Positions 9,009 through 38,050 of a DNA stretch of 38,050 bases are shown piece after piece (the first letter of the stretch is position 1; every line of letters starts with the position of its first letter). Origin of the DNA: a virus; the IMG/VR virus record IMGVR_UViG_3300017779_000037, positions 1 to 38,050 of that record. One strand, written 5' to 3'. The notes beneath the pieces are model-generated. The model saw only the letters and a program-made list of their open reading frames with translations, ran no database searches and was not told the origin of the DNA. The position numbers and the translations under genes are program-made.

Positions 9009-9340
9009 TATGCAACCTCCTTAAAACCAAAACTAGCAACTTCATACTTTTTAGTACCAACAAGCATTTGGTCACCAACAGATGTGGAACGCAAACCCCA
9101 TTCCTTACCACTATCATCAACATGAAGTGGAGCCATTACAGTGACATTAGGATTAAAGTCACCGTTAGATTCTCCGCCTTCAAAAACTTCTTTTTTGATT
9201 GACCAAGAACCCATTACATTGTTTGTCCAACGATAAGCATATTCAAGTGCTTCCATTTCTTCTGTTCCTTCCGGAGCATCAACAAATGCTACAACGTGGG
9301 GAGTATCATCGAATGCTGAATGTATAACTGAAACTTTCAT
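9008..9340 (-). CDS. Hypothetical phage protein, 110 aa
   Basis: A 110-residue protein beginning MKVSVIHSAF, with beta-rich ends and an acidic middle. A conserved-looking aromatic patch (YAYRWTNNVMGSW) occupies residues about 35-47. No known domain is recognised. The start follows AGAGAGAGG and lies about 23 bases beyond the predicted transcription start of the promoter at 9370-9397. Its stop overlaps the next start by one base. This promoter has the GANTC-containing spacer shared with others in the block, which suggests the gene is expressed early by host RNA polymerase. Confidence 0.75.
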   Translation of the reverse strand: MKVSVIHSAFDDTPHVVAFVDAPEGTEEMEALEYAYRWTNNVMGSWSIKKEVFEGGESNGDFNPNVTVMAPLHVDDSGKEWGLRSTSVGDQMLVGTKKYEVASFGFKEVA

Positions 9341-9369
9341 ATTAACCTCTCTCTTTTGATTATGTAATT

Positions 9370-9397
9370 ATAATAACACGATTCGTGTATCTGTCAA
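9370..9397 (-). promoter_or_regulatory. Sigma70-type promoter with GANTC and a palindrome in the spacer (serves 110-, 82- and 62-aa genes)
   Basis: On the minus strand, -35 TTGACA lies at 9392-9397 and -10 TATTAT at 9370-9375, spacer 16. The spacer holds GANTC at 9380-9384, centred in the 13-base dyad ACACGAATCGTGT (9376-9388, 5-bp arms). Distances are 7 bases from -35 to GANTC and 4 from GANTC to -10, identical to the promoters at 10086 and 10500. An alternative -10 TATAAT at 9367-9372 would need a 19-base spacer. The gap 9341-9401 otherwise holds only the leader. Confidence 0.75.
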
Positions 9398-9401
9398 GTT
9401 T

Positions 9402-9581
9402 TTAGTCGAAAAAGTTACCTAAAACCCAAACAAATTTTGTGTCAGATACTTGTTGCCACATTCCGTCTTTCCAGTTTGGCCACAATATTTTGCGATTTGC
9501 ATCTTCCATTACGTCAAGACCGTTTTCTGCTTTAGCTACAAACGTGTCACCTAAATGATTTTCAAATGTGAATGTTTTCAT
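9402..9581 (-). CDS. Small hypothetical protein, 59 aa
   Basis: A 59-residue gene on the minus strand with start ATG 9579-9581 and stop TAA 9402-9404. It is preceded by a strong AAGGAGAGAG ribosome site and lies ten bases after the stop of the 156-aa gene, so it is the second gene of that unit. The protein starts MKTFTFENHLGDTFVAKAEN and is unusually rich in Trp and Phe (WPNWKDGMW, then KFVWVLGNFFD). No family is recognised. The ribosome site, spacing and lack of competing frames argue that it is real. Its end abuts the promoter at 9370-9397. Confidence 0.75.
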   Translation of the reverse strand: MKTFTFENHLGDTFVAKAENGLDVMEDANRKILWPNWKDGMWQQVSDTKFVWVLGNFFD

Positions 9582-25723: not shown

Positions 25724-26410
25724 ATGTTTAAAGATAAAATTAATATACAAGCTATCGGTACACTCAAAATCTCAGATAAAGAGACTGGCACCGTACTTGT
25801 AGACAAGAAAAATGCGATTCATCCAGGAAATATGGCGTATGTCTTGGCTTCTGCACTTGGTGGACAACCAACAAGTGTGAATAGTACAGGAGATTCCCCA
25901 TATATCAATTGGATGGCGTTTGGTAACGGAGGAAGTAGTTCTACTACTACACTGTCTTACCGTTCTCCAAGAGTCTTCACAACATATGATGAATTACCAA
26001 TTACATCCAGTAATTCAACATTATATTCAAAAACGTATCAGCAACAGGTAGTAACTACAATATTTGCTCCTGGCCAGAAGATAGATCCAAACGATCCTAA
26101 TTCTGCATCGATACCTGAAAATACATCTAAAGTGAATTTCAAAGTTACCATGTCGCATGATGACTACGAAACTATGCAACAACAATCAGACCCGACTATT
26201 TCTACGCCGGCTACTGATAGTTCTACTGATACAGATAGTGTCACTGCGTTTACTTTTGATGAGATTGGACTTCTTGCTGGTGTAACAACACCGACGGGAT
26301 TGGATGAAACAAAAACTTTGATGGTAACGCATGTAACTTTTCATCCTGTGTTATTATCAGCGAATAGGACTATTGTAATAGATTACACTATTACTATTCA
26401 ACTTAGCTAA
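25724..26410 (+). CDS. Virion structural protein, probably baseplate or tail periphery
   Basis: A 228-residue protein I cannot name. It opens with MFKDKINIQAIGTLKISD and has NAIHPGNMAYVLASALGG (residues about 30-47). A Ser/Thr-rich patch at about 68-80 and another at 160-175 follow, and it ends in beta segments (FDEIGLLAG, then LMVTHVTFHPVLLSANRTIV, IDYTITIQLS). This build, with a closing IDYTI strand, is common in small phage tail and baseplate proteins. Its own late promoter lies 33 bases upstream. In T4 order the wedge genes 8-11 would lie here, but no similarity to gp8 or gp9 is evident. No catalytic residues are visible. Confidence 0.6.
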   Translation: MFKDKINIQAIGTLKISDKETGTVLVDKKNAIHPGNMAYVLASALGGQPTSVNSTGDSPYINWMAFGNGGSSSTTTLSYRSPRVFTTYDELPITSSNSTLYSKTYQQQVVTTIFAPGQKIDPNDPNSASIPENTSKVNFKVTMSHDDYETMQQQSDPTISTPATDSSTDTDSVTAFTFDEIGLLAGVTTPTGLDETKTLMVTHVTFHPVLLSANRTIVIDYTITIQLS

Positions 26411-26481: not shown

Positions 26482-27387
26482 ATGGCGGTGATATCAAACA
26501 GTGACTTAAGTACACTAAGAAATACACTTAATACCATTTTAAATGGTACAGGTGTTGCTGGTGGCTATAATCAGTCACACTCGGTAACGGCCAACCCTGC
26601 GGCAGGTGATACAATCGATGATGCATATCAAGATTCATTATTTTCTGCGGCGGCAAAGGTCACAAATTATTATAACATTACAAACCCACTAACGGCTGTC
26701 AATGCTGGTGATGTAATTGATGACAATCAATATTACAATCATGCATCAACATTGAATTCAAGTTTAGATACTAGATTTAATAATCCATGGGATTATTCAA
26801 CTGGTTGGGACATGACAACTGCAACTGAAACAACTGAAACAGTTGCCAATTGGAACGGATCACACAACACGGTCACAAGAGTTCAATTTGGTTCAGAAGC
26901 AGATATGAATGCCTGGTTTTCTGCTGGTGGAGAAATCAGAATATCAATGTCTCACAACGACACAAGTGATAACCAACAAGGAACATCTTGGGAACAATTA
27001 ACTTCTGAAATGGGTACATATAGAATTTCAGTTAGACCAACAGACACAACAACAGTGACAGATTCAATACGTAAAAAGTATTCAGACTTGACTACATCGT
27101 ATGTAGAAATCAAAAAAGAAAATGCTGATGATGGTGACTATAGTTCTAACTATGCATCTATTGAAGCATACAAATCAGGTGCTGACATTTACGTAAGAAT
27201 TACATTAAATGATGCTCACGTGGCGAAGTCAGGTTCTGGTTCAGGATACGGCGGCCCATGGTCTTGGACGGGAGCTGATTCAGTTCCTGGTACTTCAACA
27301 GTAAATGTTTCATCACTGAAACTATCAAACTCATCTGGTTCCGTTAACATTACGAATCCTACATTTACAGTAACAGACAGTCTATAA
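26482..27387 (+). CDS. Virion structural protein, paralogue 1 (GYNQSH type)
   Basis: A 301-residue protein, Thr/Ser/Asn-rich and short of Cys, as usual for extracellular virion parts. Landmarks are NSDLSTLRNTLNTIL at the start, GGYNQSHSV (27-35), WFSAGGEIRIS (about 145-155), SWEQLTSEMGTY, TSYVEIKKEN, VRITLNDAHV and PWSWTGADSVPGT. All but the first recur in order in the next gene, so the two are tandem paralogues. I do not know the family's role. The late position and composition suggest a fibre, collar or baseplate-peripheral protein. The ribosome site TAGGAG lies about six bases before ATG, right after a 12-base palindrome. Confidence 0.65.
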   Translation: MAVISNSDLSTLRNTLNTILNGTGVAGGYNQSHSVTANPAAGDTIDDAYQDSLFSAAAKVTNYYNITNPLTAVNAGDVIDDNQYYNHASTLNSSLDTRFNNPWDYSTGWDMTTATETTETVANWNGSHNTVTRVQFGSEADMNAWFSAGGEIRISMSHNDTSDNQQGTSWEQLTSEMGTYRISVRPTDTTTVTDSIRKKYSDLTTSYVEIKKENADDGDYSSNYASIEAYKSGADIYVRITLNDAHVAKSGSGSGYGGPWSWTGADSVPGTSTVNVSSLKLSNSSGSVNITNPTFTVTDSL

Positions 27388-27416: not shown

Positions 27417-28397
27417 ATGGCACCACAGAGTTACTATTTAGGAGGGAAAATACGAGCATCCGACTACAATGGATTTGCAGATGATATAAATGAAATTGTA
27501 GGTATTGGAGCTGGTGACTCAGGCTATGGCCAATCCCATTTAGTAATTCCAAACGTTGCCTCTGGCGTTAAAATTAATGCGACACATATGCAGTTACTCC
27601 TAACTGCATTAAAATTTGCAGGAAGACACCAGGGCACTACTATCAATTCACCAGAAGATACTAGTGACCCTGACTTCCCATCAGTTGGCAGACTTATAGA
27701 ACTTATTCCTACTTTAACTAATGATATCACTAATGTTCGTTCAAATAAGTTAAACTATGACATTGCAATGATGACACTTGCACAAAATGTAATATCATCA
27801 TCAAAAACTTATGTAATACCTAATCAAGCAGGCGATGTCTGGGATAGCCAAGTGACATATGAAGTTTCTGCTATTTTTACCGATGAAGACGCAAGAAGAC
27901 ATTTTTTCAATGCAGGTGGTGAAATTAGATTAGACACAAATTTTATCGCCAGTGGCACAGATTTACAAAGTTTAGACTGGGAGTCTTTATTCCAAGCAGT
28001 TGGTATGATTAAACTTAGTCATAACGTAACAGAAGTTACAGGAAATACAGGAACGCCAGGTGGCGGATTTACTGGGTTAACTTCTACATATACTAAAATC
28101 TACGAAAAAGCAGGTGGTTCAGGCGGTTCTGGATACTATGCAAACAACAAATATGAAATCATGGCTAGATTAAACGGTACAAATGCTATTGATTTTAGAC
28201 TTGATTTCTATGATACTCACGTACAAGATAGTGGGTTTTATAGCGGTGTACCGTGGACTGGACAAGATTACGTAGCAGGAACTCTTACTGCACAAGTAGA
28301 CATTCAATATGCTAATGACACAGACCCATCGGGCTTAGGTGTTGTAGTAGATCCAGCGGGCCCAGGTCCAACATTTTCTAATATTTCTCAACTTTAA
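27417..28397 (+). CDS. Virion structural protein, paralogue 2 (GYGQSH type)
   Basis: A 326-residue protein sharing ordered motifs with its neighbour: GYGQSHLV, FFNAGGEIRLD, DWESLFQAVGM, STYTKIYEK, FRLDFYDTHV and PWTGQDYVAGT. It adds a central helical segment (VGRLIELIPTLTNDITNVRS) and a Gly/Pro-rich end (VVVDPAGPGPTF). The opening YLGGKIRASDYNGFADDIN matches the N-terminal adaptor style of phage fibre-like proteins. No enzymatic motif is seen. The start follows AAGGA, 29 bases after the previous stop, so the pair is co-transcribed. It is the last gene before the sigma70-type promoter at 28401. Confidence 0.65.
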   Translation: MAPQSYYLGGKIRASDYNGFADDINEIVGIGAGDSGYGQSHLVIPNVASGVKINATHMQLLLTALKFAGRHQGTTINSPEDTSDPDFPSVGRLIELIPTLTNDITNVRSNKLNYDIAMMTLAQNVISSSKTYVIPNQAGDVWDSQVTYEVSAIFTDEDARRHFFNAGGEIRLDTNFIASGTDLQSLDWESLFQAVGMIKLSHNVTEVTGNTGTPGGGFTGLTSTYTKIYEKAGGSGGSGYYANNKYEIMARLNGTNAIDFRLDFYDTHVQDSGFYSGVPWTGQDYVAGTLTAQVDIQYANDTDPSGLGVVVDPAGPGPTFSNISQL

Positions 28398-28400
28398 CTG

Positions 28401-28429
28401 TTGACATTGGTCGACTTTTCCTGTATTAT
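28401..28429 (+). promoter_or_regulatory. Strong sigma70-type promoter heading the glycan/radical-SAM operon
   Basis: TTGACA at 28401-28406 and TATTAT at 28424-28429 with a 17-base spacer, starting four bases after the upstream stop. The spacer holds the palindrome GTCGAC (28410-28415) but no GANTC, unlike the minus-strand promoters. There is no GATAAATA here. The first ATG is at 28454 after AAGGAG. Confidence 0.75.
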
Positions 28430-28453
28430 TAAAAGAATACAAGGAGTATAACC

Positions 28454-28831
28454 ATGTCAAACGATATTACACCTTCTCAAGAACAACTTGAAAGGCTTGA
28501 AAAAGCATTGGATTTTTCCAATACAATGCAGACTTTTAATCTTAATAAGAATAACCTAAAAGTCAAAACACAAAATCTTCTTAATTACAGTACAAATGGT
28601 GGGACATTTAATGTCAGTCAGTCATTGATTGGCTTTGTCCATATGATTGTTTCGTCAGGCAAAAAAGAAGTTATTATTATGGATAAAAATGATATACCTA
28701 TAAAAATTGAAGATACTGAAAAGTTTTTAGAAGATATTTCTAGTTTATATTTTGAAGCAATAAATGAATATTATAATGATTATCAGAAACTAAGAAGTTC
28801 CAGAAAGATTGAAAAGGTACTAGAGATATAA
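28454..28831 (+). CDS. Hypothetical protein, 125 aa, first gene of modification operon
   Basis: A 125-residue protein with no recognised family. It is helical at both ends (SQEQLERLEKALDFSNTM; YFEAINEYYNDYQKLRSSRK) with a beta segment between (KKEVIIMDKNDIPIKIED). No signal peptide or membrane segment is seen. The start follows AAGGAGTATAACC. It is the first gene behind the promoter at 28401, and its stop shares a base with the start of the first glycosyltransferase (TAATG), so translation is coupled. It may be a small adaptor or assembly factor for the fibre proteins upstream or the enzymes downstream; neither is demonstrable. Confidence 0.65.
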   Translation: MSNDITPSQEQLERLEKALDFSNTMQTFNLNKNNLKVKTQNLLNYSTNGGTFNVSQSLIGFVHMIVSSGKKEVIIMDKNDIPIKIEDTEKFLEDISSLYFEAINEYYNDYQKLRSSRKIEKVLEI

Positions 28832-29712
28832 TGAATAAGGGCGTTATTATCTTTGCGTCTAACAACGGGTTAATCGATTATATTAAGATTGCATGTGCGA
28901 GTGCAGGGTTTGTTAGAAAGAACTTATCAGGGTTTGATGAGGTATGTCTAATAACCGACAAAGATTCTATTAATACAAAAGAAGACCACGAGTTAATTGA
29001 AAAGTATTTCGATAGAGTTATATATCAAGACATACTACGCAAAGAAGAAAACATAAGATTATTTAAAGACGGTGGTTCAGGCAAATCTGATTACGCACCT
29101 TTTGTTAATAAATCAAGAGGAGATATATATTCACTATCTCCGTATAAAGAGAATTTGGTTATCGATTGTGATTACTTTGTAATGAGTAACACACTTGACC
29201 AAGTGTGGGGTAGCGAAAGCGACTTCATGATTAATTGTCAATATAGGGACATTGCAGGTAGACATGGTGGTAATGTTTCCTATATTGATGATTTTTCAAT
29301 ACCAATGTATTGGGCAACAGTTTTTTACTTTAGAAAATCTGAATATGCAGAAAATTTATTTTCATTAATCTCACACATAAAAGAAAACTACAAGTATTAT
29401 TATTTTCTATATAATTGCGGTGGCACTTTATTTAGAAATGATTTTGCTTTTTCAATGGCTATTCATATCATTAATGGTTGCGTAGATGCTTCTGCACCAT
29501 CACTTCCTATTGATTATTTAAACAACAGTTTTGATTTAGATTCAGTGTTTAGAGTCAATGATAGTAAAGACATTATAATGTATTGTGCAAAAGCAGAGAA
29601 GACAAGTGAACATTTATTAGCAAGATTTAACAATACTGATATTCATATCATGAATAAAAAATCAGTCGAAAGACATATTGATGAATTTTTAAATTGTGGG
29701 AGTGTAAAATGA
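28831..29712 (+). CDS. GT-A-fold glycosyltransferase-like protein 1
   Basis: A 293-residue protein. The Rossmann-like start GVIIFASNNGLIDYIKIACA is followed by a strand (EVCLIT) and a DxD metal/nucleotide-sugar motif in ENLVIDCDYFV (Asp112, Asp114), as in GT8-like GT-A enzymes. Downstream, YWATVFYFRKS and FRNDFAFSMAIHI match the acceptor-side strand and the '(N)DxA' helix of such enzymes. It would transfer a sugar from a nucleotide donor; donor and acceptor are unknown. It is a paralogue of the next gene (same start pattern, DxD and D-x-A helix). It is coupled by TAATG upstream and ATGA downstream. Confidence 0.75.
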   Translation: MNKGVIIFASNNGLIDYIKIACASAGFVRKNLSGFDEVCLITDKDSINTKEDHELIEKYFDRVIYQDILRKEENIRLFKDGGSGKSDYAPFVNKSRGDIYSLSPYKENLVIDCDYFVMSNTLDQVWGSESDFMINCQYRDIAGRHGGNVSYIDDFSIPMYWATVFYFRKSEYAENLFSLISHIKENYKYYYFLYNCGGTLFRNDFAFSMAIHIINGCVDASAPSLPIDYLNNSFDLDSVFRVNDSKDIIMYCAKAEKTSEHLLARFNNTDIHIMNKKSVERHIDEFLNCGSVK

Positions 29713-30569
29713 GCAAAGGTTATATAGCTATTGCACAAAACAATGAAGAACATGATTACTTAAAATTAGCCTATGCTATGGCGTTAAGTATAAAAGCTAC
29801 TCAAAAAGAAAACAAGATATGTATTTGCGTTGATGAACAAACAAAAGAAACAATGCAAGACAAGTATAAAGAAGTATTTGATTACGTTGTTGACATTCCG
29901 TGGAACGATGATGCTGGTCAAGACAAGTGGAAAATACATAATAAATGGAAATATGCTCACATGTCTCCGTTTAAAGAAAGTATCATATTAGATACTGATA
30001 TGGTGTTTACTCATTCAGTGGATCATTGGTGGGACTATCTATCAAAAAAAGATTTATGGGTATGTACAAATGTTAAAACATTTAGAAATGAAAATGTTGT
30101 AGATGATTATTATAGAAAAAAGTTTACACAATTAGAATTGCCAAATGCTTATAGTAACTTTACATACTTCAAAGAGTCTTCCACTACATATGAGTTTTTT
30201 CGTATGGTCGAAATTATTATGACACATTGGAATGTTTACTATGATAAGTTTATGAAAGGCACAGGTCAAAACTGGATGAGTGCAGATTTGGCATATGCAT
30301 TAGCTATAAAGTTATTAGACTTAGAAGATACTGTTTGTGATTATAATATTAAAGATGTACCAACATTTGTACACATGAAAAGTTTCGTACAGAATATACC
30401 ACAACATAAAATTTCAAATGACTGGACACAAAGTTTAACTAGCCAATTGTCAGATGATTTGAAAGTAAGAGTAGCAAACTATGAACAATCATTGCCGTTT
30501 CATTATGTAGAAAAGAATTGGATGACAGATGAAAAAATCCAACAATATGAGAGGGCATTAGGAGTATGA
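29709..30569 (+). CDS. GT-A-fold glycosyltransferase-like protein 2
   Basis: A 286-residue protein from MSKGYIAIAQNN. The frame is open 15 bases further up, but GGGAG lies before 29709, and that start gives a standard ATGA overlap. It shares with its neighbour the N-terminal AxxN...DYLKLAYAMALSI, the DxD in ESIILDTDMVF (Asp95, Asp97) and a late helix MSADLAYALAIKLL. Two aromatic stretches (HWWDYLSKKDLWVCT, MTHWNVYYDKF) flank the acceptor side. A paralogous pair in tandem suggests two successive or alternative sugar transfers. The stop overlaps the next start by ATGA. Confidence 0.78.
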   Translation: MSKGYIAIAQNNEEHDYLKLAYAMALSIKATQKENKICICVDEQTKETMQDKYKEVFDYVVDIPWNDDAGQDKWKIHNKWKYAHMSPFKESIILDTDMVFTHSVDHWWDYLSKKDLWVCTNVKTFRNENVVDDYYRKKFTQLELPNAYSNFTYFKESSTTYEFFRMVEIIMTHWNVYYDKFMKGTGQNWMSADLAYALAIKLLDLEDTVCDYNIKDVPTFVHMKSFVQNIPQHKISNDWTQSLTSQLSDDLKVRVANYEQSLPFHYVEKNWMTDEKIQQYERALGV

Positions 30570-31156
30570 GTATATTAAGTGTAGAATTAACAGAAGAAAA
30601 TAAAAGAGAAGTACGAGTAGTTTCATTTGATGAAAAAGGGAAAATAGATTCTATATCATCAAAAGTACCTGAACAAGAAAATCTTTTATATGCATATTTC
30701 ACTATGGACGATATGATACCTTTTATGCAAGGTACAAATAAAATGTCAGACTACTTAGTTTCAAAAACTAAAGATGTATTCACATATGAAATTATCAAAA
30801 CCAAGGTAAGTATTAAAAAACGTTCAAAAGAAAGTCAGTTATTTCAAATACCAGATGTAAAAAATGTAGATATTGATATAACATATGACGGAAAAGAATT
30901 TAAATTTATACCAAGCGAAGAAATAGTAAAAGGGTCAGGTGTTAATAATTCACAACAGGTTACTGTAGGCGGCAAACATGCACATGTATTTTTTATAACA
31001 CATGACAACAAGCCTGAACATTTGATACAAACAATGCAAATACCATTTGCTGATTTATTATCTGGGCCAGTTTCTATTAAATTCGACTATAATAAATACA
31101 GTATAAGTTTATATACCCAGAAGTTTCTGGAAACATATTCATTCAGGAGATTATAA
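30566..31156 (+). CDS. Hypothetical protein, 196 aa, within glycosyltransferase cluster
   Basis: A 196-residue protein with no recognised family. It is beta-rich, with alternating strands (VRVVSFDEKG, NVDIDITYDGKEFKFIP, QQVTVGGKHAHVFFITHD, PVSIKFDYNKYSISLY) and Lys-rich helices in the first half. The look is of a small beta-sandwich, perhaps a structural or binding protein, and a candidate acceptor for the modifying enzymes around it. It is coupled to genes on both sides (ATGA before, TAATG after). Confidence 0.65.
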   Translation: MSILSVELTEENKREVRVVSFDEKGKIDSISSKVPEQENLLYAYFTMDDMIPFMQGTNKMSDYLVSKTKDVFTYEIIKTKVSIKKRSKESQLFQIPDVKNVDIDITYDGKEFKFIPSEEIVKGSGVNNSQQVTVGGKHAHVFFITHDNKPEHLIQTMQIPFADLLSGPVSIKFDYNKYSISLYTQKFLETYSFRRL

Positions 31157-32130
31157 TGAAACTTGAAATAGGCGAACTAGATGTTTTTTATCTAAGTTAT
31201 GACGAACCCAATAAAGAAGAACATTGGGCTGATATTATCAGTAAGTTCCCTTTTGCGAAAAGAGTAGACGGAGTAAAAGGATTTGATAATGCACACAAAG
31301 AATGTGCAAGACAAAGCGACACAGATAGGTTTATTACTATTGATGGAGATAACATCGTAGAAGAAAACTTTTTTGATTTAGAATTAATATTCCCAGAAGG
31401 AACAGATTTAGAAAACTCTGTTATATCTTGGAGTGCAAAAAATATGACTAATGGTTTAGTATACGGCAATGGAGGCATCAAATGCTGGCCAGTGAAACTT
31501 GTATTAGAAATGAAGACACACGAAAATGCAGTAGACGAAACAAAGAAAGTAGACTTTTGTTGGGACTTGAATTATATCCAGATGAATAATATATATTCAC
31601 GTGTATTTAATTCCGGTTCTCCATTTCAAGCCTTTCGTGCAGGTTATCGTGAAGGTTCTAAAATGTCACTTGATGAAGGTAAGAAGGTACCAGTAGATGA
31701 ATTTAAAAATCGTATCTGGCCAAAGAATTATGAACGTTTAATTACATGGTGCAACATTGGTGCTGACATAGAGAACGGTTTATGGGCATGTTATGGTGCA
31801 AGATTAGGATGTTACGATACTAATCTTAATGAAGATTTTATTCTTGAAAATATTTCAAGCTATGATTGGTTTAAAGAATATTTTGATAATACAGTTTTTC
31901 CAAAGTTTCAAGGTGGTGAAGAAAAATGTGAGAGAACTAAATTGGAATGGGATTACGATAAACTATTTGATGAAGCCGTTCGTATTGGTGATATACTAGA
32001 AGATAAAATTGGCATGGAATTATGTGATCCAACTCCTGAGGTTGCTAAGTTTTTTAAACGTGTTTATGTCAACCCACCAAGAGTTAACAATCCATTAGCA
32101 ACAGAGAAACAAACTGGTTGGGACAAATAA
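31156..32130 (+). CDS. Glycosyltransferase-like protein (GT2-type start)
   Basis: A 324-residue protein. The opening DVFYLSYDEPNKEEHWADI, then FPFAKRVDGVKGFDNAHKEC, then DRFITIDGDNIV, has the GT-A layout: beta strand, donor-binding loop, and a DxD in IDGDN (Asp63, Asp65). Proteins with this pattern occur in marine phages, annotated at most as glycosyltransferase-like. The rest is Trp- and Cys-rich (GIKCWPVKLV, KVDFCWDLNYIQ, LWACYGARLGCYD). A Pro-rich tail follows. It starts on TAATG with AGGAG in place and ends five bases before the first radical SAM gene. Catalytic role is inferred. Confidence 0.7.
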   Translation: MKLEIGELDVFYLSYDEPNKEEHWADIISKFPFAKRVDGVKGFDNAHKECARQSDTDRFITIDGDNIVEENFFDLELIFPEGTDLENSVISWSAKNMTNGLVYGNGGIKCWPVKLVLEMKTHENAVDETKKVDFCWDLNYIQMNNIYSRVFNSGSPFQAFRAGYREGSKMSLDEGKKVPVDEFKNRIWPKNYERLITWCNIGADIENGLWACYGARLGCYDTNLNEDFILENISSYDWFKEYFDNTVFPKFQGGEEKCERTKLEWDYDKLFDEAVRIGDILEDKIGMELCDPTPEVAKFFKRVYVNPPRVNNPLATEKQTGWDK

Positions 32131-32135
32131 TTTAA

Positions 32136-33704
32136 ATGTCTAACTATGATGATGACGCAATAGTAACGAGAGATAAGTTAAACGCTCTATCTCCGTCAAT
32201 GTGTATGGCGAAGTGGTTGCAAGTAAGTTTGCATCTACCACAAGGTCGTACACATAGTTGTTATCATCCTCCAACACATCCAATACCATTAGAAGAACTT
32301 AAAAAAGATCCTAATGCGTTACACAACACAACTTTTAAATTAGAAGAACGCAAACAAATGAAATGTGGCGACCGTCCTGAAGGTTGCCAATATTGCTGGA
32401 ACGTTGAAGACGCTCCGAATCCACCTAAGGGTGGTAGATTGAGTGATAGACATTATCGCTCAAGTGAATGGTGGGTAAAAGATGCCTGGGATGAAGTAGT
32501 TAATAATCCTTGGGACCACAACATCACTCCTAGATATGTTGAGGTGAACTTTAATCAAGCATGTAATTTTAAATGCAGTTATTGTTCACCACACTTATCT
32601 ACAGCATGGGAAGACGATGTAAAAAAGCACGGCGGTTTCCGTTTCAGCAATGGTACAGGGCATAATGATATAGATTACTTACGTAAGACTGGTCTTATGC
32701 CACTTGAAGTTGCTCGTAAAGATAATCCTTATATTGAAGCATTCTGGAAATGGTTTCCAATGATATACAGAGACTTGAAAGTTTTTCGTATGACTGGTGG
32801 AGAACCGTTAATGGATAGTAACACGTTTAAAGTATTTGATTATGTAAACGAGAATCCAAATCCATTTCTTGATTTAAGTATTACATCTAACATGTGCCCG
32901 CCACAAGATAAGTTATTTGATAAATTTATTGATAAGATTAAAGCATGTGAAGAAATAAGAGTTTGGGAAGATCCAAAAAGATTTAATCCTGATAGTGGCA
33001 ATCATTGGTATGTTGCTCCAGCATATAAGCATTTTAGTTTATATGTTAGTGTTGATGGTGTTGGCAAACAAGCAGAATATATGCGTGATGGACTAGACTT
33101 TAACAAGATGTATGAAAACTGTCGCAGAGTATTACGTGAAACAGACGGTACAGAAATTTCATTTATCAATACGTTTCAACTATTGAGTATTCCAAATCTG
33201 CGTGGTTTCTTGCAGATGGTTTTAGATTTACGTGAAGAATTTGGATATGAAAATCAAGAAGACAAAATTATACAACCACCGGATCATAATGGGTTCAAAC
33301 ACCCACCTTTTGTTAGAAAGAAACGACAACGTGTGTGGTTTGATATTCCTTATCTGAGATATCCAGATTGGATGACAATACAATTAGCAGACCAAGAGTT
33401 ATTAGATTCCATACAAAAAAATATTGACTTTATGAAAGATAATGTACTGGAGAATGATTTATATGGTCGCAAATATACAGGCTTTAAGAATTATGAAGTA
33501 TTGAAACTTGAGCGTGATTTAGCATGGGCCAAAGAAGGGCTAAATATGAGTGATGAAGATTTAAGTAATCATTTAATTCGTTTTTATGAATATTTTACAC
33601 AATATGATAATAGACGAAATTTAAACTTTTTGGAGACCTTTCCAGAGATGAAAGATTTTTGGAATGAAGCTAAATCAGAGTATGAGGAAAAATATGGATC
33701 CTAA
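32136..33704 (+). CDS. Twitch-domain radical SAM protein, type A (copy 1)
   Basis: A 522-residue radical SAM protein. The N-terminal twitch-like part has Cys23, Cys42 in SCYHPPTHPIPLEEL, and Cys84/Cys87 in CQYCW, likely ligands of an auxiliary Fe-S cluster. The radical SAM core begins at residue 134 with CNFKCSYC (Cys143, 147, 150), which binds the [4Fe-4S] cluster that cleaves S-adenosylmethionine; MTGGEPLM is the SAM-binding GGE motif. The core continues with SITSNMCP and LYVSVDGVGKQAEYMRDG. It belongs to the phage-borne 'twitch domain-containing radical SAM' group, whose substrates are unknown. Closest relative here is the gene at 35081. No clear ribosome site is seen, and it lies five bases after the previous stop. 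Confidence 0.85.
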   Translation: MSNYDDDAIVTRDKLNALSPSMCMAKWLQVSLHLPQGRTHSCYHPPTHPIPLEELKKDPNALHNTTFKLEERKQMKCGDRPEGCQYCWNVEDAPNPPKGGRLSDRHYRSSEWWVKDAWDEVVNNPWDHNITPRYVEVNFNQACNFKCSYCSPHLSTAWEDDVKKHGGFRFSNGTGHNDIDYLRKTGLMPLEVARKDNPYIEAFWKWFPMIYRDLKVFRMTGGEPLMDSNTFKVFDYVNENPNPFLDLSITSNMCPPQDKLFDKFIDKIKACEEIRVWEDPKRFNPDSGNHWYVAPAYKHFSLYVSVDGVGKQAEYMRDGLDFNKMYENCRRVLRETDGTEISFINTFQLLSIPNLRGFLQMVLDLREEFGYENQEDKIIQPPDHNGFKHPPFVRKKRQRVWFDIPYLRYPDWMTIQLADQELLDSIQKNIDFMKDNVLENDLYGRKYTGFKNYEVLKLERDLAWAKEGLNMSDEDLSNHLIRFYEYFTQYDNRRNLNFLETFPEMKDFWNEAKSEYEEKYGS

Positions 33705-35091
33705 TATTAAAAGAAAATCAGGTGATTCGTTTTGTGCCTTAGCATGGATGCATACAAGTTCAGAACCATACGGCACATGCAGAAGTTGTTGTATTGCCCG
33801 TGACCATATTACCAGAGAAGACGGTAAGATTTATTCATTAGCTGAATATACTGTTAGTGATATCATTAATAGTACGTATATGAAAAAGTTACGTACAGCA
33901 ATGCGTAATGGTGGTAAGCCAAAGCAGTGCAAAACATGTTGGGACGATGAAGCAAACGGTAAAGAAAGCAAACGATTAATATATAATAAAATGGTAGAGC
34001 ATGTCAATATGGAGATTGACTATGATGCAGAAGTTTGTATTCCACGTGATTTGCAAATTAATATAGGAAACGTATGTAATCTAAAGTGTAGAACATGTTC
34101 TCCTGTATGTTCATCTAAGTGGGCAGTAGAATATAGAGATAGAGGAAAAGATATTTGGAAGCCTGACTTTGATACAGAGTTTAATGATTTTGAAAATAGT
34201 GTATTCTGGCATGATATAGATAACTGGTCAAAAACAGTAGAGAGACTTGAGATAATGGGCGGAGAGCCGTTCTACAGTAAAAGTTTTAAAAAACTAGTAG
34301 ATGCATTAATTGACAATGGAAGTAGTAAGCATATCAGTATGAACTTAAGTACAAACGGTACAATATTCAATAGTAAAATGATGGACAGAATGCTTAGAAA
34401 CTTTAAACGAGTGGGTATAAATTTAAGTATTGATGGTATAGGAAAACATTTTGATTATATTAGACATGGTGTTCCGTGGGAAACTGTAAAATCTAATTTA
34501 GATAGTTTCTTTCATTTGTATATGAATCAACTTGAATATAAACAAAATAAAAATGATGGGTTTAAACTCTCAATGAGTTATACTATTACAATCGGAAATT
34601 TAAATATTTTTTATCTGAAAGATATACATGAGTTCTTTCATAAAAATTATATACAGTATACTGGCGTACAAGACGAATTCTTTAATAGAATTCCATTCTT
34701 AGAAATATGGAATAATGTAGTTCATTTTCCTAGTTTCTATAGTGCAAATGTTTTACCAGATGAAGTGAAAGGTAAAATATTACGTAGAGTTACAAGACCA
34801 CAAGAATATGGTATGGACGCATGGGATAGAGATACATACGTAAATGATATTACACCAATATTAAATCATGCTAAAAAAGGTTGCAAGAATGATGACTGGT
34901 TAGCTTTTGTTAGAGAGACAATGGAAACAGATAGATATAGAAAAGAAAATTTTGAAGAAACATTTCCTGAATTATTTGAGTTATTGAAACCATATTGGGA
35001 AAAGGCAAAGAGTGAGTTTATTAATGAAGAATCTAAGATATTCAAATTAGATACGATAATTAGAAATAAAGGTACTAATAATGACTCGTAA
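33694..35091 (+). CDS. Twitch-domain radical SAM protein, type B (copy 1)
   Basis: A 465-residue protein from MDPNIKRKSG. The frame opens 30 bases earlier, but GAGGA sits just before 33694, giving an 11-base overlap with the previous gene. The N-terminal cluster region has Cys14 in FCALAWMHT, Cys29/32/33 in GTCRSCC and Cys79/82 in CKTCW. The radical SAM motif is CNLKCRTC (Cys128, 132, 135), and the SAM motif is IMGGEPF. NLSTNGTIFN and GINLSIDGIGKHFDYIRHG complete the barrel. It lacks the HPP segment of type A and shares the FCxAxW(M/S)HT start with the gene at 37338. The reaction is unknown; being coupled to a type A gene suggests they act together. Confidence 0.85.
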   Translation: MDPNIKRKSGDSFCALAWMHTSSEPYGTCRSCCIARDHITREDGKIYSLAEYTVSDIINSTYMKKLRTAMRNGGKPKQCKTCWDDEANGKESKRLIYNKMVEHVNMEIDYDAEVCIPRDLQINIGNVCNLKCRTCSPVCSSKWAVEYRDRGKDIWKPDFDTEFNDFENSVFWHDIDNWSKTVERLEIMGGEPFYSKSFKKLVDALIDNGSSKHISMNLSTNGTIFNSKMMDRMLRNFKRVGINLSIDGIGKHFDYIRHGVPWETVKSNLDSFFHLYMNQLEYKQNKNDGFKLSMSYTITIGNLNIFYLKDIHEFFHKNYIQYTGVQDEFFNRIPFLEIWNNVVHFPSFYSANVLPDEVKGKILRRVTRPQEYGMDAWDRDTYVNDITPILNHAKKGCKNDDWLAFVRETMETDRYRKENFEETFPELFELLKPYWEKAKSEFINEESKIFKLDTIIRNKGTNNDS

Positions 35092-36628
35092 GATAAGAGA
35101 AGGCGAAACGTTACACCAATTCAAAGAACGTATGATTGACTCAGTCAGTGAGTCATATTGTGCGGCTAAATGGTATAATGCTACTATATGGTTAGGACAT
35201 GGGCAGACAGCTTCATGTCACCACCCACCAGGGCATTGGATTCCACTAGAAGAATTAAAAGATAATCCTACAGCAATTCACAATACAAAGCATAAGAAAC
35301 TAATGCGTAAGTATATGCAAGAAGGCAAAAGACCAGCAGAATGTGAATACTGTTGGAAAGTTGAAGATATGGGTAAAGATAATATATCTGACCGTGTATT
35401 CAAAACAGAAATCTTTAAAGATGAAGATATTCATAAAAGTGCAGAAATGCCATGGGATGAAAATGTCATGTTGCGTACACTTGAAATATCATTCGATAGA
35501 GCCTGTAACTTTAAATGTTCATACTGTAATCCTGCTTTCAGTACCGCATGGGTTAAGGATATAAATCAATATGGCGGATATCAAAATATTCAATCAGATG
35601 GACGAGGACACTTTGTCGATACTGCACCATGGGCGGCTCCTGCCGCAAAACATGAAGAAGATAATCCTTACATTCAAGCATTTCATCAGTGGTGGGAAAA
35701 CGGTCTAGCAGACAACTTAGAAGAAATTCGTATTACTGGTGGTGAACCTATTATGCATAAAGGTACTTGGAAATTGTTTGATTGGTTTGAACAAAATCCA
35801 GATAGAGGAAGAAATATGCGTTTTGCTATTAACTCTAATCTATGTCCAACTAAGCCTGCAATATTTGAAAGACTTATTGAAAAGTCATGGATCGTTCCTA
35901 ACTTAGAAATTTATACTTCTATGGAAGCAACAAAACATCAAGCAGAATATATTCGTGATGGTTTAGATTATGACTTCTGGAAAGACAATATCCATCAAGT
36001 ATTAAAAAGAGGAAACATTAAAAAAGTACACATGATGATGACAATCAATTCGTTGTGTTTGACAACTATTACAGAATTTATGGAAGAGATGTTACAACTT
36101 AGAGATGAGTACGGACAACGTGCGCCTACAATGACGTTAAACATTTTACGTTTCCCATCATTTCAGAGTGCGGCAATTTTGCCTGAACATATTAAAACAT
36201 TCTATAAAGATAAATTAGAAAGATGGTTTTCAACTGAACGGGCACAAACAGGATTGACTGAGGCAGAAAAAGCAAGTACACAACGTCTGATTGACTACCT
36301 AGATATTGTGAAGACGCCTCATAAAAATACAGCAGAAACTCCTAAGCTATATAATGACTTTAAAGCATTCTTTGAACAGTATGATATTAGAAGAGGTAAG
36401 AACTTTAGAGAAACATTTAAAGGTCCTATTGCTGATTGGTATGACACATTGGTGGCAGAGTCACCAAGCAAAGAACAGATTTTGAATAAAGAATTAGTAT
36501 TCAAAACAAATGATAGAGGTGGTGATCCTGCAACTACAGAAGATTATGAAGGCGGAGATGATGAACACGAACAAGTTGGTGGTTGGGATACAAAGAACGA
36601 TGCTCTAGGAGGAGTTAAAGTTGAATGA
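35081..36628 (+). CDS. Twitch-domain radical SAM protein, type A (copy 2)
   Basis: A 515-residue paralogue of the gene at 32136. The N-terminal part has Cys27, Cys46 in SCHHPPGHWIPLEEL, and Cys88/91 in CEYCW. The radical SAM motif is CNFKCSYC (Cys142, 146, 149) and the SAM motif ITGGEPIM, followed by FAINSNLCP and LEIYTSMEATKHQAEYIRDG. The C-terminus adds an acidic Gly-rich tail (RGGDPATTEDYEGGDDEHE) absent from copy 1, perhaps a docking tail. It overlaps the previous gene by 11 bases and the sulfotransferase start by ATGA. Same family and unknown substrate as copy 1; divergence between copies implies an old duplication and separate targets. Confidence 0.85.
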   Translation: MTRKIREGETLHQFKERMIDSVSESYCAAKWYNATIWLGHGQTASCHHPPGHWIPLEELKDNPTAIHNTKHKKLMRKYMQEGKRPAECEYCWKVEDMGKDNISDRVFKTEIFKDEDIHKSAEMPWDENVMLRTLEISFDRACNFKCSYCNPAFSTAWVKDINQYGGYQNIQSDGRGHFVDTAPWAAPAAKHEEDNPYIQAFHQWWENGLADNLEEIRITGGEPIMHKGTWKLFDWFEQNPDRGRNMRFAINSNLCPTKPAIFERLIEKSWIVPNLEIYTSMEATKHQAEYIRDGLDYDFWKDNIHQVLKRGNIKKVHMMMTINSLCLTTITEFMEEMLQLRDEYGQRAPTMTLNILRFPSFQSAAILPEHIKTFYKDKLERWFSTERAQTGLTEAEKASTQRLIDYLDIVKTPHKNTAETPKLYNDFKAFFEQYDIRRGKNFRETFKGPIADWYDTLVAESPSKEQILNKELVFKTNDRGGDPATTEDYEGGDDEHEQVGGWDTKNDALGGVKVE

Positions 36629-37338
36629 AAAAACATTTAGTAATTTACTACGGAAGGTCGGGTAGTACACTAGTAGACCACTATGTATCAAGAAGTCTTT
36701 GCTCAAAAGAATTTTGGTTCAGCGAACATGGGTTCCCTTCATCAGAAATACACCACGATGAGTTGCTTATATATTATAAGAAACTTATGAAACTCAATGA
36801 ATCAAATATAGATTGGTGTATGAAATATCACATAAGTTCTGGAATGACTGCAAGACCTTTAAAAGGCAAAATGTATGACTTTAGTTTAGAAGGATCAAAG
36901 ATATTCTTTGAAGACCTTGGTATTACTGATTTACATTTTAGTTTTAGAATGGATATGCTAGATACAATTTATAGTCACATGATTGCAGAAAGAGACAATA
37001 CATGGGTAATGACTGATGGCGAAATGGGTGTACATAAAAAAAGATATTACGAAAAAGACTATGCACACAAAACATGTCATGCATATAACAAAAGTTATTT
37101 CTTATACAATGAATATGTTAAAGAATTTTCTAATAATTTCAATGTATCATTTTATCCATATGAAAATTTAAATAGTATATTTGATATTAGCAATGACCCT
37201 CGAGGCATGAAGAAACAGTTAACAAAAGAACAAAAAATAGATTTGATTTGGAACTATGATGAAATAGAACTTATAGCGAAAGAATTCCCTTTTTACCATG
37301 GTAAAATAAATTCTAAAAACGGAGTATTAGAAACGTAA
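36625..37338 (+). CDS. Sulfotransferase-like protein
   Basis: A 237-residue protein with the 5'-phosphosulfate loop of PAPS-dependent sulfotransferases at its N-terminus, YYGRSGSTLVD (Gly10-Thr15). A second motif, FRMDMLDTIYSHMIAERDNT with Arg108, Asp110 and Ser117, fits the 3'-phosphate loop (Arg, then Ser) of Stf0-like enzymes. Such enzymes transfer sulfate from PAPS to hydroxyls of sugars or tyrosine. It lies between radical SAM genes and downstream of three glycosyltransferases, so a sugar acceptor is plausible. AGGAGG lies upstream, and ATGA and TAATG couplings on either side make it part of the operon. It lacks a membrane anchor and is probably cytoplasmic. Confidence 0.7.
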   Translation: MKKHLVIYYGRSGSTLVDHYVSRSLCSKEFWFSEHGFPSSEIHHDELLIYYKKLMKLNESNIDWCMKYHISSGMTARPLKGKMYDFSLEGSKIFFEDLGITDLHFSFRMDMLDTIYSHMIAERDNTWVMTDGEMGVHKKRYYEKDYAHKTCHAYNKSYFLYNEYVKEFSNNFNVSFYPYENLNSIFDISNDPRGMKKQLTKEQKIDLIWNYDEIELIAKEFPFYHGKINSKNGVLET

Positions 37339-38050
37339 TGAAAAAGGTGATACCTATTTGGAAGAGCGACGGTAGTTGTGCAGAAGAAAGCGAAAATAAA
37401 GTTTTCTGTATGGCTCCATGGTCTCATACCTATATATCACCGCAAGGAGAACGTAGACTTTGTTGTGCATCACGTGAAGAACATTCATTTCAAAAGCAAT
37501 ACATTGATGCGTCAAATGATGAACGTTATGGTGAAGTAAAAGACTCTAAAACAGATGCAGACGATTTTAATCCAGTATCACTAGAAGAACATTGGAACTC
37601 TGATTACATGAAAGACATTAGAAAGAAACTAATGGCAGGAGAACGTATACCACAGTGTGATGTTTGCAATGATGACATTCTAAGTTTATCCTCTTATCGT
37701 AAATGGTTTACTGGTGTGCTATTCAGAGATAAAATACAAGAAGCATTCGATAAGACAGACGATGACGGGCATACAACAATGCCTGCTATATCATTTGACT
37801 ATCGTTACTCTAACTTGTGTAACTTTAAATGTCGTATGTGTGGTGAACAGTTATCAAGTTCATGGGAAGCAGAAAAGAAAAAACATAACATGTGGTCGAT
37901 TGAAAATCAACCCTTTATGCAACCAACTGTAAAACAAAAGATGGTTAAGTTTCAACGTACTGTAGTTGAGCCTGAATTTAAGAAAGCAATTAGTGATGGT
38001 ATCGTAGAAGAAATATATTGGGTAGGTGGTGAGCCACTTATGTACGATAT
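37338..38050 (+). CDS. Twitch-domain radical SAM protein, type B (copy 2, partial)
   Basis: An open frame from ATG 37338 (TAATG with the sulfotransferase stop) to the window edge, 237 visible residues. Cys24 lies in FCMAPWSHT, Cys42/43 in RRLCC, Cys107/110 in CDVC (Asn follows, where the other three copies have Trp). The radical SAM motif CNFKCRMC (Cys161, 165, 168) follows YSNL, and WVGGEPLM is the SAM motif. A long acidic insert (about 50-85) separates the first Cys pairs and is absent from copy 1. The remainder of the barrel lies outside the window. This is the fourth radical SAM gene of the operon, and it restores the type order A-B-A-B. Confidence 0.85.
   Translation, partial: MKKVIPIWKSDGSCAEESENKVFCMAPWSHTYISPQGERRLCCASREEHSFQKQYIDASNDERYGEVKDSKTDADDFNPVSLEEHWNSDYMKDIRKKLMAGERIPQCDVCNDDILSLSSYRKWFTGVLFRDKIQEAFDKTDDDGHTTMPAISFDYRYSNLCNFKCRMCGEQLSSSWEAEKKKHNMWSIENQPFMQPTVKQKMVKFQRTVVEPEFKKAISDGIVEEIYWVGGEPLMYD

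Follow-up and report, generated by a model that had tools for sequence, protein, structure and literature searches.

Our analysis reveals a conserved, colinear operon of glycosyltransferase (GT) and radical S-adenosylmethionine (SAM) genes behind the fibre-like genes of the virus record IMGVR_UViG_3300017779_000037 from IMG/VR. Positions 1 to 38,050 of this record, a stretch of 38,050 nucleotides, were analyzed and are referred to as the window. More than 100 IMG/VR loci carry the operon. It has its own promoter, its GT and radical SAM parts appear to be inherited separately, and bacterial homologues of its radical SAM proteins lie beside polysaccharide-export genes. With the host-surface and virion readings taken together, a glycan product of some sort is probable. 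Our preferred, still tentative reading is a cytoplasmic glycan-decorating pathway, most likely acting on host surface polysaccharide.

The operon extends from 28454 to the window end at 38050 and comprises ten genes, all on the plus strand, with 1-, 4- or 11-base overlaps and one 5-base gap. As the window is a linear record ending inside the last gene, the operon is cut by the contig end. It begins with s125 (28454..28831), encoding a small conserved protein whose family occurs in 112 loci, followed by GTa (28831..29712, 1-base overlap with s125), GTb (29709..30569, 4-base overlap), u196 (30566..31156, 4-base overlap), and GTc (31156..32130, 1-base overlap). Beyond the 5-base gap come rsA (32136..33704), rsB (33694..35091, with an 11-base overlap from the ATG at 33694 and a reading frame open from 33664), and rsC (35081..36628, 11-base overlap). 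A sulfotransferase-like gene (36625..37338, 4-base overlap) and a fragment of rsD (37338..38050, 1-base overlap) follow. G+C content is 31–35% in the operon versus 32–38% elsewhere in the window, with no composition shift. An initial annotation had reported these reading frames and overlaps, a sigma70-type promoter, three DxD proteins, four twitch-type radical SAM proteins, and a protein with a 3′-phosphoadenosine-5′-phosphosulfate (PAPS) loop. Frames, overlaps, and promoter are as described there; u196 (196 aa, at 30566) was left out of its gene account.

All four radical SAM proteins belong to NF033640 (NCBIfam N_Twi_rSAM, an N-terminal-twitch radical SAM subfamily), as their annotation implied. 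Against the curated cut-off of 170 bits, rsA scored 294.8 bits (E 1.1e-87), rsB 316.3 (E 3.2e-94), rsC 308.4 (E 7.9e-92), and the truncated rsD 180.9 (E 4e-53). Every one of 66 diverse homologues matched the model at E 1e-20 or better. The metal-binding motifs, whose persistence in homologues had been in question, were not lost: seven cysteines are invariant in the 66 homologues, three in the CxxxCxxC motif (C142, C146, and C149) and four in the N-terminal twitch (C27, C46, C88, and C91). The most conserved member is rsC, with a mean column identity of 60% in its alignment; rsB is accessory, often absent and present in a minority of loci. A complete rsD of 465 aa is found in the related locus L006 (L006 13669-15066).

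The IMG/VR collection was scanned with a 13-member rsC alignment, the 66-member radical SAM alignment being too diverse. This gave at least 599 matches for rsC, and rsA gave 74. At E 0.001, single phage records contained 21 (G046 and G021), 20 (G011), and 19 (G015) NF033640 matches, with at least 12–13 in each above the curated cut-off, and the copies are spread over several clusters per phage genome. None of 14 model genomes passed the cut-off. A second type of radical SAM cluster was observed in the same phages (loci L178, L182, and L185, corresponding to G007, G046, and G021), in which N-twitch enzymes occur alongside radical SAM proteins of other types. Its L182 and L185 versions include a protein with an SGGADS motif that resembles PP-loop ATPases, and the L185 version adds a GTc-like and a carbamoyltransferase-like protein.

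The three DxD proteins were likewise borne out, two by profile and one by structural model. GTa (DCD) and its paralogue GTb (DTD) form one GT8/glycogenin-like family, matching PDB glycogenin by profile (E 9e-7 over the N-terminal 118 profile positions); the two aspartates are kept in 38 and 42 of 44 members, respectively. GTb also matches phrog_1903 (E 1.9e-6), and neither protein has a Pfam GT8 match. GTc (DGDN) showed no sequence-level match. Its AlphaFold2 (AF2) model, with a predicted local distance difference test (pLDDT) score of 90.7, confidently predicts a GT-A-type glycosyltransferase. Nearly all of its top 50 Foldseek hits were GT-A enzymes or nucleotidyltransferases, the best being the S-glycosyltransferase SunS (E 9.3e-4, template modelling (TM) score ~0.3), and its DxD motif is kept in 17/18 relatives. 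The u196 protein is modelled as all-beta (pLDDT 91.9) and matched only uncharacterized phage proteins in Foldseek (E 1e-10); no function could be assigned from these fold searches. It is ~196 aa long in phages with one fibre type and ~330 aa in those with another, at the same operon position (window, L024, L034, L042, L046, and L050), and may be a virion or fibre-associated protein. No Pfam or NCBIfam match above cut-off was obtained for s125.

The PAPS-loop protein (237 aa) carries the loop GRSGST and a second motif, RxD...S. Across 12/12 relatives, the residues of the R-x-G-x-T and R-x-D...S motifs and a tryptophan (R11, G13, T15, R108, D110, S117, and W127) are invariant, with a spacing that presumably resembles that of Stf0-type enzymes. 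The motifs thus stand as annotated, but profiles did not confirm the family: the window protein had no Pfam, NCBIfam, or PDB profile match, and Sulfotransfer_3 matched 1 of the 12 relatives (E 0.03). Because invariant cofactor motifs are joined by next to no profile support, we name it sulfotransferase-like only. Matches to adenosine-5′-phosphosulfate (APS) kinase, considered as support for sulfate transfer, were dropped, as they cover the P-loop half only (positions 2–93 of 152); the matching proteins make up a separate, small P-loop kinase-like family.

Transcription of the operon would start from a sigma70-type element, TTGACA-17-TATTAT (28401..28429, plus strand, 11/12 consensus matches). 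It is the best plus-strand match of the region and lies inside the 56-base gap between the fibre gene and the operon. The same element precedes s125 in 26 of 31 nonredundant loci, compared with 0.14 expected from mononucleotide shuffles, and its spacer bases vary between relatives. This conservation indicates a host-type promoter belonging to the operon itself. No T4-like late promoter (TATAAATA) was found in the window. On the minus strand, promoter-like elements (TTGACA...TATTAT or TATACTAT) occur at 9397, 10113, and 10527, preceding small minus-strand genes, and two of the three carry GAATCGTG in the spacer. The stretch at ~9333-9405 recurs many times in a 342-kb record and other related records, suggesting that this phage group has a family of repeated host-type promoters.

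Gene maps of 149 loci were compared. These loci were found via rsA and rsC, so co-occurrence is conditional on rsA/rsC. Upstream of the operon lie fam7 (25724..26410, plus strand, 228 aa), a conserved protein matching phrog_11259 (PHROG E 4e-37), and two paralogous fibre-like virion proteins (26482..27387, 301 aa, and 27417..28397, 326 aa, both plus strand) that flank the operon. The family of the first stands directly before the operon in 100 loci. Neither has a Pfam match, and position and composition suggest the fibre role of the first. The shared order is fam7, fibre(s), s125, GTa, GTb, u196, GTc, rsA, rsC, rsD, and rsE, with insertions after rsA, rsC, and rsD. All eight core genes, from fibre to rsC, were present in 85 loci, 40 of them nonredundant, and all 40 were colinear; in each of these 40, the pairs s125-GTa and GTb-u196 lie within 60 bases of each other. 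The core genes therefore stay together in relatives, the gene-order comparison that the initial annotation had proposed. In loci without the GT block (e.g., L048, L051, L057-L059, and L062), rsA and rsC remain adjacent. L006 shares 88–89% DNA identity across the whole operon and continues, after its complete rsD, with a 274-aa protein, two radical SAM proteins, a 927-aa protein, and a GDP-mannose-dehydratase/epimerase-type enzyme. The 927-aa protein (L006:18290-21073) has no Pfam match; by eye, it shows a PAPS-loop-like stretch (PIWKNAST) and a methyltransferase-like C-terminus. Three loci filed under bacterial metagenome-assembled genomes (MAGs; L158, L160, and L163, assigned to Rickettsiales, Pelagibacter, and Betaproteobacteria) carry the phage fibre/GT/radical SAM order. 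Because the phage fibre/GT block is present, they are most likely phage contigs misbinned in MAGs and were set aside as bacterial examples.

The operon was initially viewed as a single unit, which did not survive a comparison of pairwise identities among 31 nonredundant loci. GTc tracks GTa (rho 0.89) far better than it tracks the adjacent rsA (0.64). The radical SAM genes rsA, rsC, and rsD track one another (rho 0.80–0.83) and the tail genes less (fam7-rsD 0.20), while fam7 is co-inherited with the GT module (rho 0.85–0.89). The drop at the GTc/rsA boundary is 0.25, with 5–95% of subsamples at 0.14–0.36. Since locus pairs are not independent, these correlations are descriptions and not tests. 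The window and L024 illustrate the pattern: identity is 29% for the fibre, 31% for GTa, 25% for GTb, and 50% for GTc, versus 79% for rsA, 77% for rsC, and 84% for rsD. These identity patterns indicate two separately inherited modules, one of fibre, s125, and GTs traveling with the tail genes, and a radical SAM set that is exchanged separately and retained where the fibre/GT block has been replaced.

Genes between and behind the core encode sugar-tailoring families, namely, NAD epimerase/GDP-mannose dehydratase, UDP-glucose dehydrogenase, DegT aminotransferase, NeuB, and CMP-sugar synthetase types, as well as carbamoyltransferase, methyltransferases, and 2-oxoglutarate (2OG) oxygenases. A few loci also contain SAM synthetase; one such gene lies inside a cassette (L065:8279-9379, with relatives in L073 and L074), as if the phage raised its own SAM supply for the radical enzymes. 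Outside phages, homologues 31–50% identical to rsA/rsC are found on chromosomes of Bacteriovoracaceae and relatives, which hold 1–16 NF033640 members above cut-off per genome. These homologues adjoin ABC-2 permeases and ATPases whose top matches are Wzm/RfbD and Wzt/RfbE (for Wzt/RfbE, E 9e-50 at best), together with GT4 transferases and WecE/PseC-like aminotransferases. The bacterial loci are independent evidence that the NF033640 subfamily works in surface-polysaccharide synthesis.

Export genes of this kind were absent from the phages. Hydrophobic segments occur in none of the ten window proteins and in 4 of 112 accessory families, the sole two-segment family resembling an antisense reading frame. 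No Wzx flippase (Polysacc_synt) was detected in 50 phage records, and neither an ABC-2 permease (ABC2_membrane) nor an initiating phosphoglycosyltransferase (Bac_transf) in 23, all records that may be incomplete; the same profiles matched control proteins in 13/14, 14/14, and 9/14 model genomes, respectively. Compared with an autonomous surface-polysaccharide locus, the phage loci contain GTs and nucleotide-sugar enzymes and lack their own flippase or ABC exporter and initiating transferase. Without export genes, the pathway looks cytosolic and would depend either on a lipid-linked glycan and an exporter supplied by the host or on an acceptor within the cytosol, for instance a virion protein.

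What the pathway acts on, what each radical enzyme does, which acceptor is used, and how the phage gains are inferred as follows. From the host-type sigma70 promoter behind the fibre genes, the infected cell would make cytosolic GTa, GTb, and GTc. The N-twitch radical SAM set would probably perform C–H chemistry, such as epimerization, oxidation, or deoxygenation, on sugars or the growing glycan. Tailoring enzymes would complete the product, a sulfotransferase-like protein here and methyl-, carbamoyl-, and aminotransferases, epimerases, and NeuB elsewhere. The sugars would be added to host lipid-linked surface polysaccharide on the cytoplasmic side, the host's own lipid-linked polysaccharide being the most likely acceptor because the pathway has no membrane part. 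The host exporter would then carry the altered glycan out, changing the receptor and excluding other phages. Between the fibre and the host surface, both named initially as possible targets, we lean toward the latter. It ranks first on the strength of the bacterial loci, a radical SAM set that persists where the fibre block is missing, a promoter of host type, and the earlier sugar/GT clusters of jumbo cyanophages (PMC7824862) and pelagimyophages (PMC7029224), which have been read as O-antigen modification against superinfection.

Several points weigh against a host-surface target. Co-inheritance of the GT block and the tail genes would fit virion glycosylation as well. The nearest fold match of GTc is a peptide S-glycosyltransferase, with pp-GalNAc-transferases also listed, all weak matches (TM ~0.3). 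The Wzm/Wzt matches of the bacterial loci do not reach the curated equivalog cut-offs. The N-twitch radical SAM enzymes in these loci have no known substrate, and the reading presupposes a host with an exportable polysaccharide.

In the second reading, which we rate as rather unlikely, GTa, GTb, and GTc would place a glycan, remodeled by the radical SAM and sulfotransferase-like enzymes, on the adjacent fibres or u196 before assembly, altering receptor binding or protecting the fibre. It ranks second because the GTs are inherited with the tail, export genes are missing, and the nearest GT folds include protein glycosylators. In the window, the operon begins only 56 bases past the fibre genes; s125, GTa, GTb, u196, and GTc follow the fibre/tail module (rho 0.6–0.9) more than they follow the radical SAM set; the membrane and export components were not found in the searches above; and the closest GT relatives by profile or fold include the protein- or peptide-glycosylating glycogenin and SunS. 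Phage-encoded GTs also act on mycobacteriophage virion proteins, including capsid and tail tube (Freeman et al. 2023, as cited in PMC12619734 and PMC11256854). Linkage alone, however, explains the co-inheritance, as the GTs correlate more closely with the tail gene fam7 than with the fibre. Moreover, rsA/rsC persist in other phages without a fibre-adjacent GT block, the bacterial homologues point to polysaccharide loci, and up to 20 radical enzymes is a large number for a virion tag.

Twitch/SPASM-type radical SAM enzymes are often peptide maturases, and weak peptide-maturase matches occur within the radical SAM core domain. A pathway in which these enzymes modify a peptide resembling ribosomally synthesized and post-translationally modified peptides (RiPPs) or fibre residues, with sugars secondary, is nevertheless improbable. 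There is no precursor-sized gene, the operon genes overlapping end to end; no leader-recognition domain appeared in the Pfam or NCBIfam results; and the neighboring genes are sugar enzymes. The multistep glycan-or-peptide pathway of the initial annotation is supported in part, as a glycan pathway linked to fibre genes, and a peptide target is not favored because the accessory genes are sugar-nucleotide enzymes and the bacterial homologues sit at polysaccharide-export loci.

Equally hard to credit is a small sugar-derived secondary metabolite, an antibiotic or toxin aiding the infected cell. Iyer et al. suggested such a product for another cyanophage cluster, their second, which contains carbamoyltransferases (PMC7824862); carbamoyltransferase, 2OG oxygenase, other tailoring enzymes, and radical SAM chemistry would suit it. 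Against it stand the tight coupling to GTs and fibre genes, the bacterial homologues beside Wzm/Wzt, and the fact that no exporter or resistance gene was seen. Very improbable is DNA hypermodification, with GTs and radical SAM enzymes building glycosylated hypermodified bases: both enzyme types are known from phage base hypermodification, and two records have a second radical SAM cluster next to genes for thymidylate synthase and dihydrofolate reductase (names from sequence resemblance), but the operon has no base hydroxymethylase and adjoins fibre genes, its accessory genes make NDP/CMP sugars or add carbamoyl or methyl groups, and HMUDK_hel (PF18723) was unmatched in 23 records, where the controls were unmatched too.

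Returning to the glycan-decorating pathway, the NF033640 N-twitch enzymes could possibly be radical enzymes of a new class that modifies glycans or nucleotide sugars; aquatic jumbo phages would have expanded them to ~20 per genome as a swappable module with fibre-linked GTs, making sugars foreign to the host. We put this forward cautiously. If true, it would provide a substrate class (glycans) for a radical SAM subfamily without known function and explain the dozen or more such genes in some marine viruses, until now reported only as iron-sulfur auxiliary genes. Phages would be using radical chemistry to remodel the host surface or their own fibres. The colinear core and separate module inheritance also lead to testable predictions about how abundant uncultured phages switch host range and exclude superinfecting phages.

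The initial annotation knew of no functional account of such a stacked set. We found none either, but loci of this kind had been noted before in two papers (PMC7029224 and PMC5332604). Zaragoza-Solas et al. (2020, PMC7029224) describe a pelagimyophage host recognition cluster with GT8 enzymes and radical SAM cassettes, read as O-chain modification and superinfection exclusion. As here, it is a large variable island directly behind a big baseplate protein and fibres, with GT8-type enzymes and radical SAM genes. Unlike that cluster, the window comes from a much larger phage, and its radical SAM genes form a conserved colinear core rather than occasional cassettes; the passages found assign no function to those cassettes. 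The pelagimyophage cluster lies in a SAR11 T4-like phage between VrlC and gp14; the isolates nearest to the baseplate wedge protein of the window are of the RaK2 type (~33%), and the window does not include the gp14 end. Iyer et al. (2021, PMC7824862) attribute sugar/GT clusters of P-SSM2-type jumbo cyanophages to surface polysaccharide or a metabolite. These clusters share epimerases, cupin isomerases, several GT families, carbamoyltransferases, methyltransferases, and 2OG oxygenases with phage clusters of the present kind, but the account mentions neither a radical SAM enzyme nor a sulfotransferase, and the core order GT-GT-u196-GT-radical SAM is not described there. Stacked radical SAM genes also occur in the T4-like marine virus of Nishimura et al. 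(2017, PMC5332604), whose 12 radical SAM genes were read as iron-sulfur auxiliary genes; the available text draws no pathway and no tie to GTs or polysaccharide loci. For mycobacteriophage virion glycosylation, the sources, as far as available, report no radical SAM set, and virion modification by the present operon is putative. The NF033640 model, to which all radical SAM proteins of the operon belong, has a name without a function and is here tied to polysaccharide-export loci in Bacteriovoracaceae. As far as our literature searches reach, the GT/radical SAM core with its conserved gene order, its inheritance as two modules, the conservation of the promoter, and the Wzm/Wzt tie are new.

Searches of an isolated-phage collection returned no close homologue of rsA, the sulfotransferase-like protein, GTa, GTc, or s125, and rsB matched only KVP40-type vibriophages (~25%); no cultured model phage for the operon was found in this collection. 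A pelagimyophage identity of the window, prompted by the literature, was considered and dropped after the baseplate search favored RaK2-type jumbo phages and synteny was seen with 342-kb records. The isolates nearest to the baseplate wedge protein are RaK2/121Q-type phages (~350 kb), at ~33% identity, and a 342,607-base record shows synteny across the baseplate region, mostly at 64–79% DNA identity. On these resemblances, the window probably represents part of a ~340-kb aquatic jumbo myophage related to RaK2/121Q.

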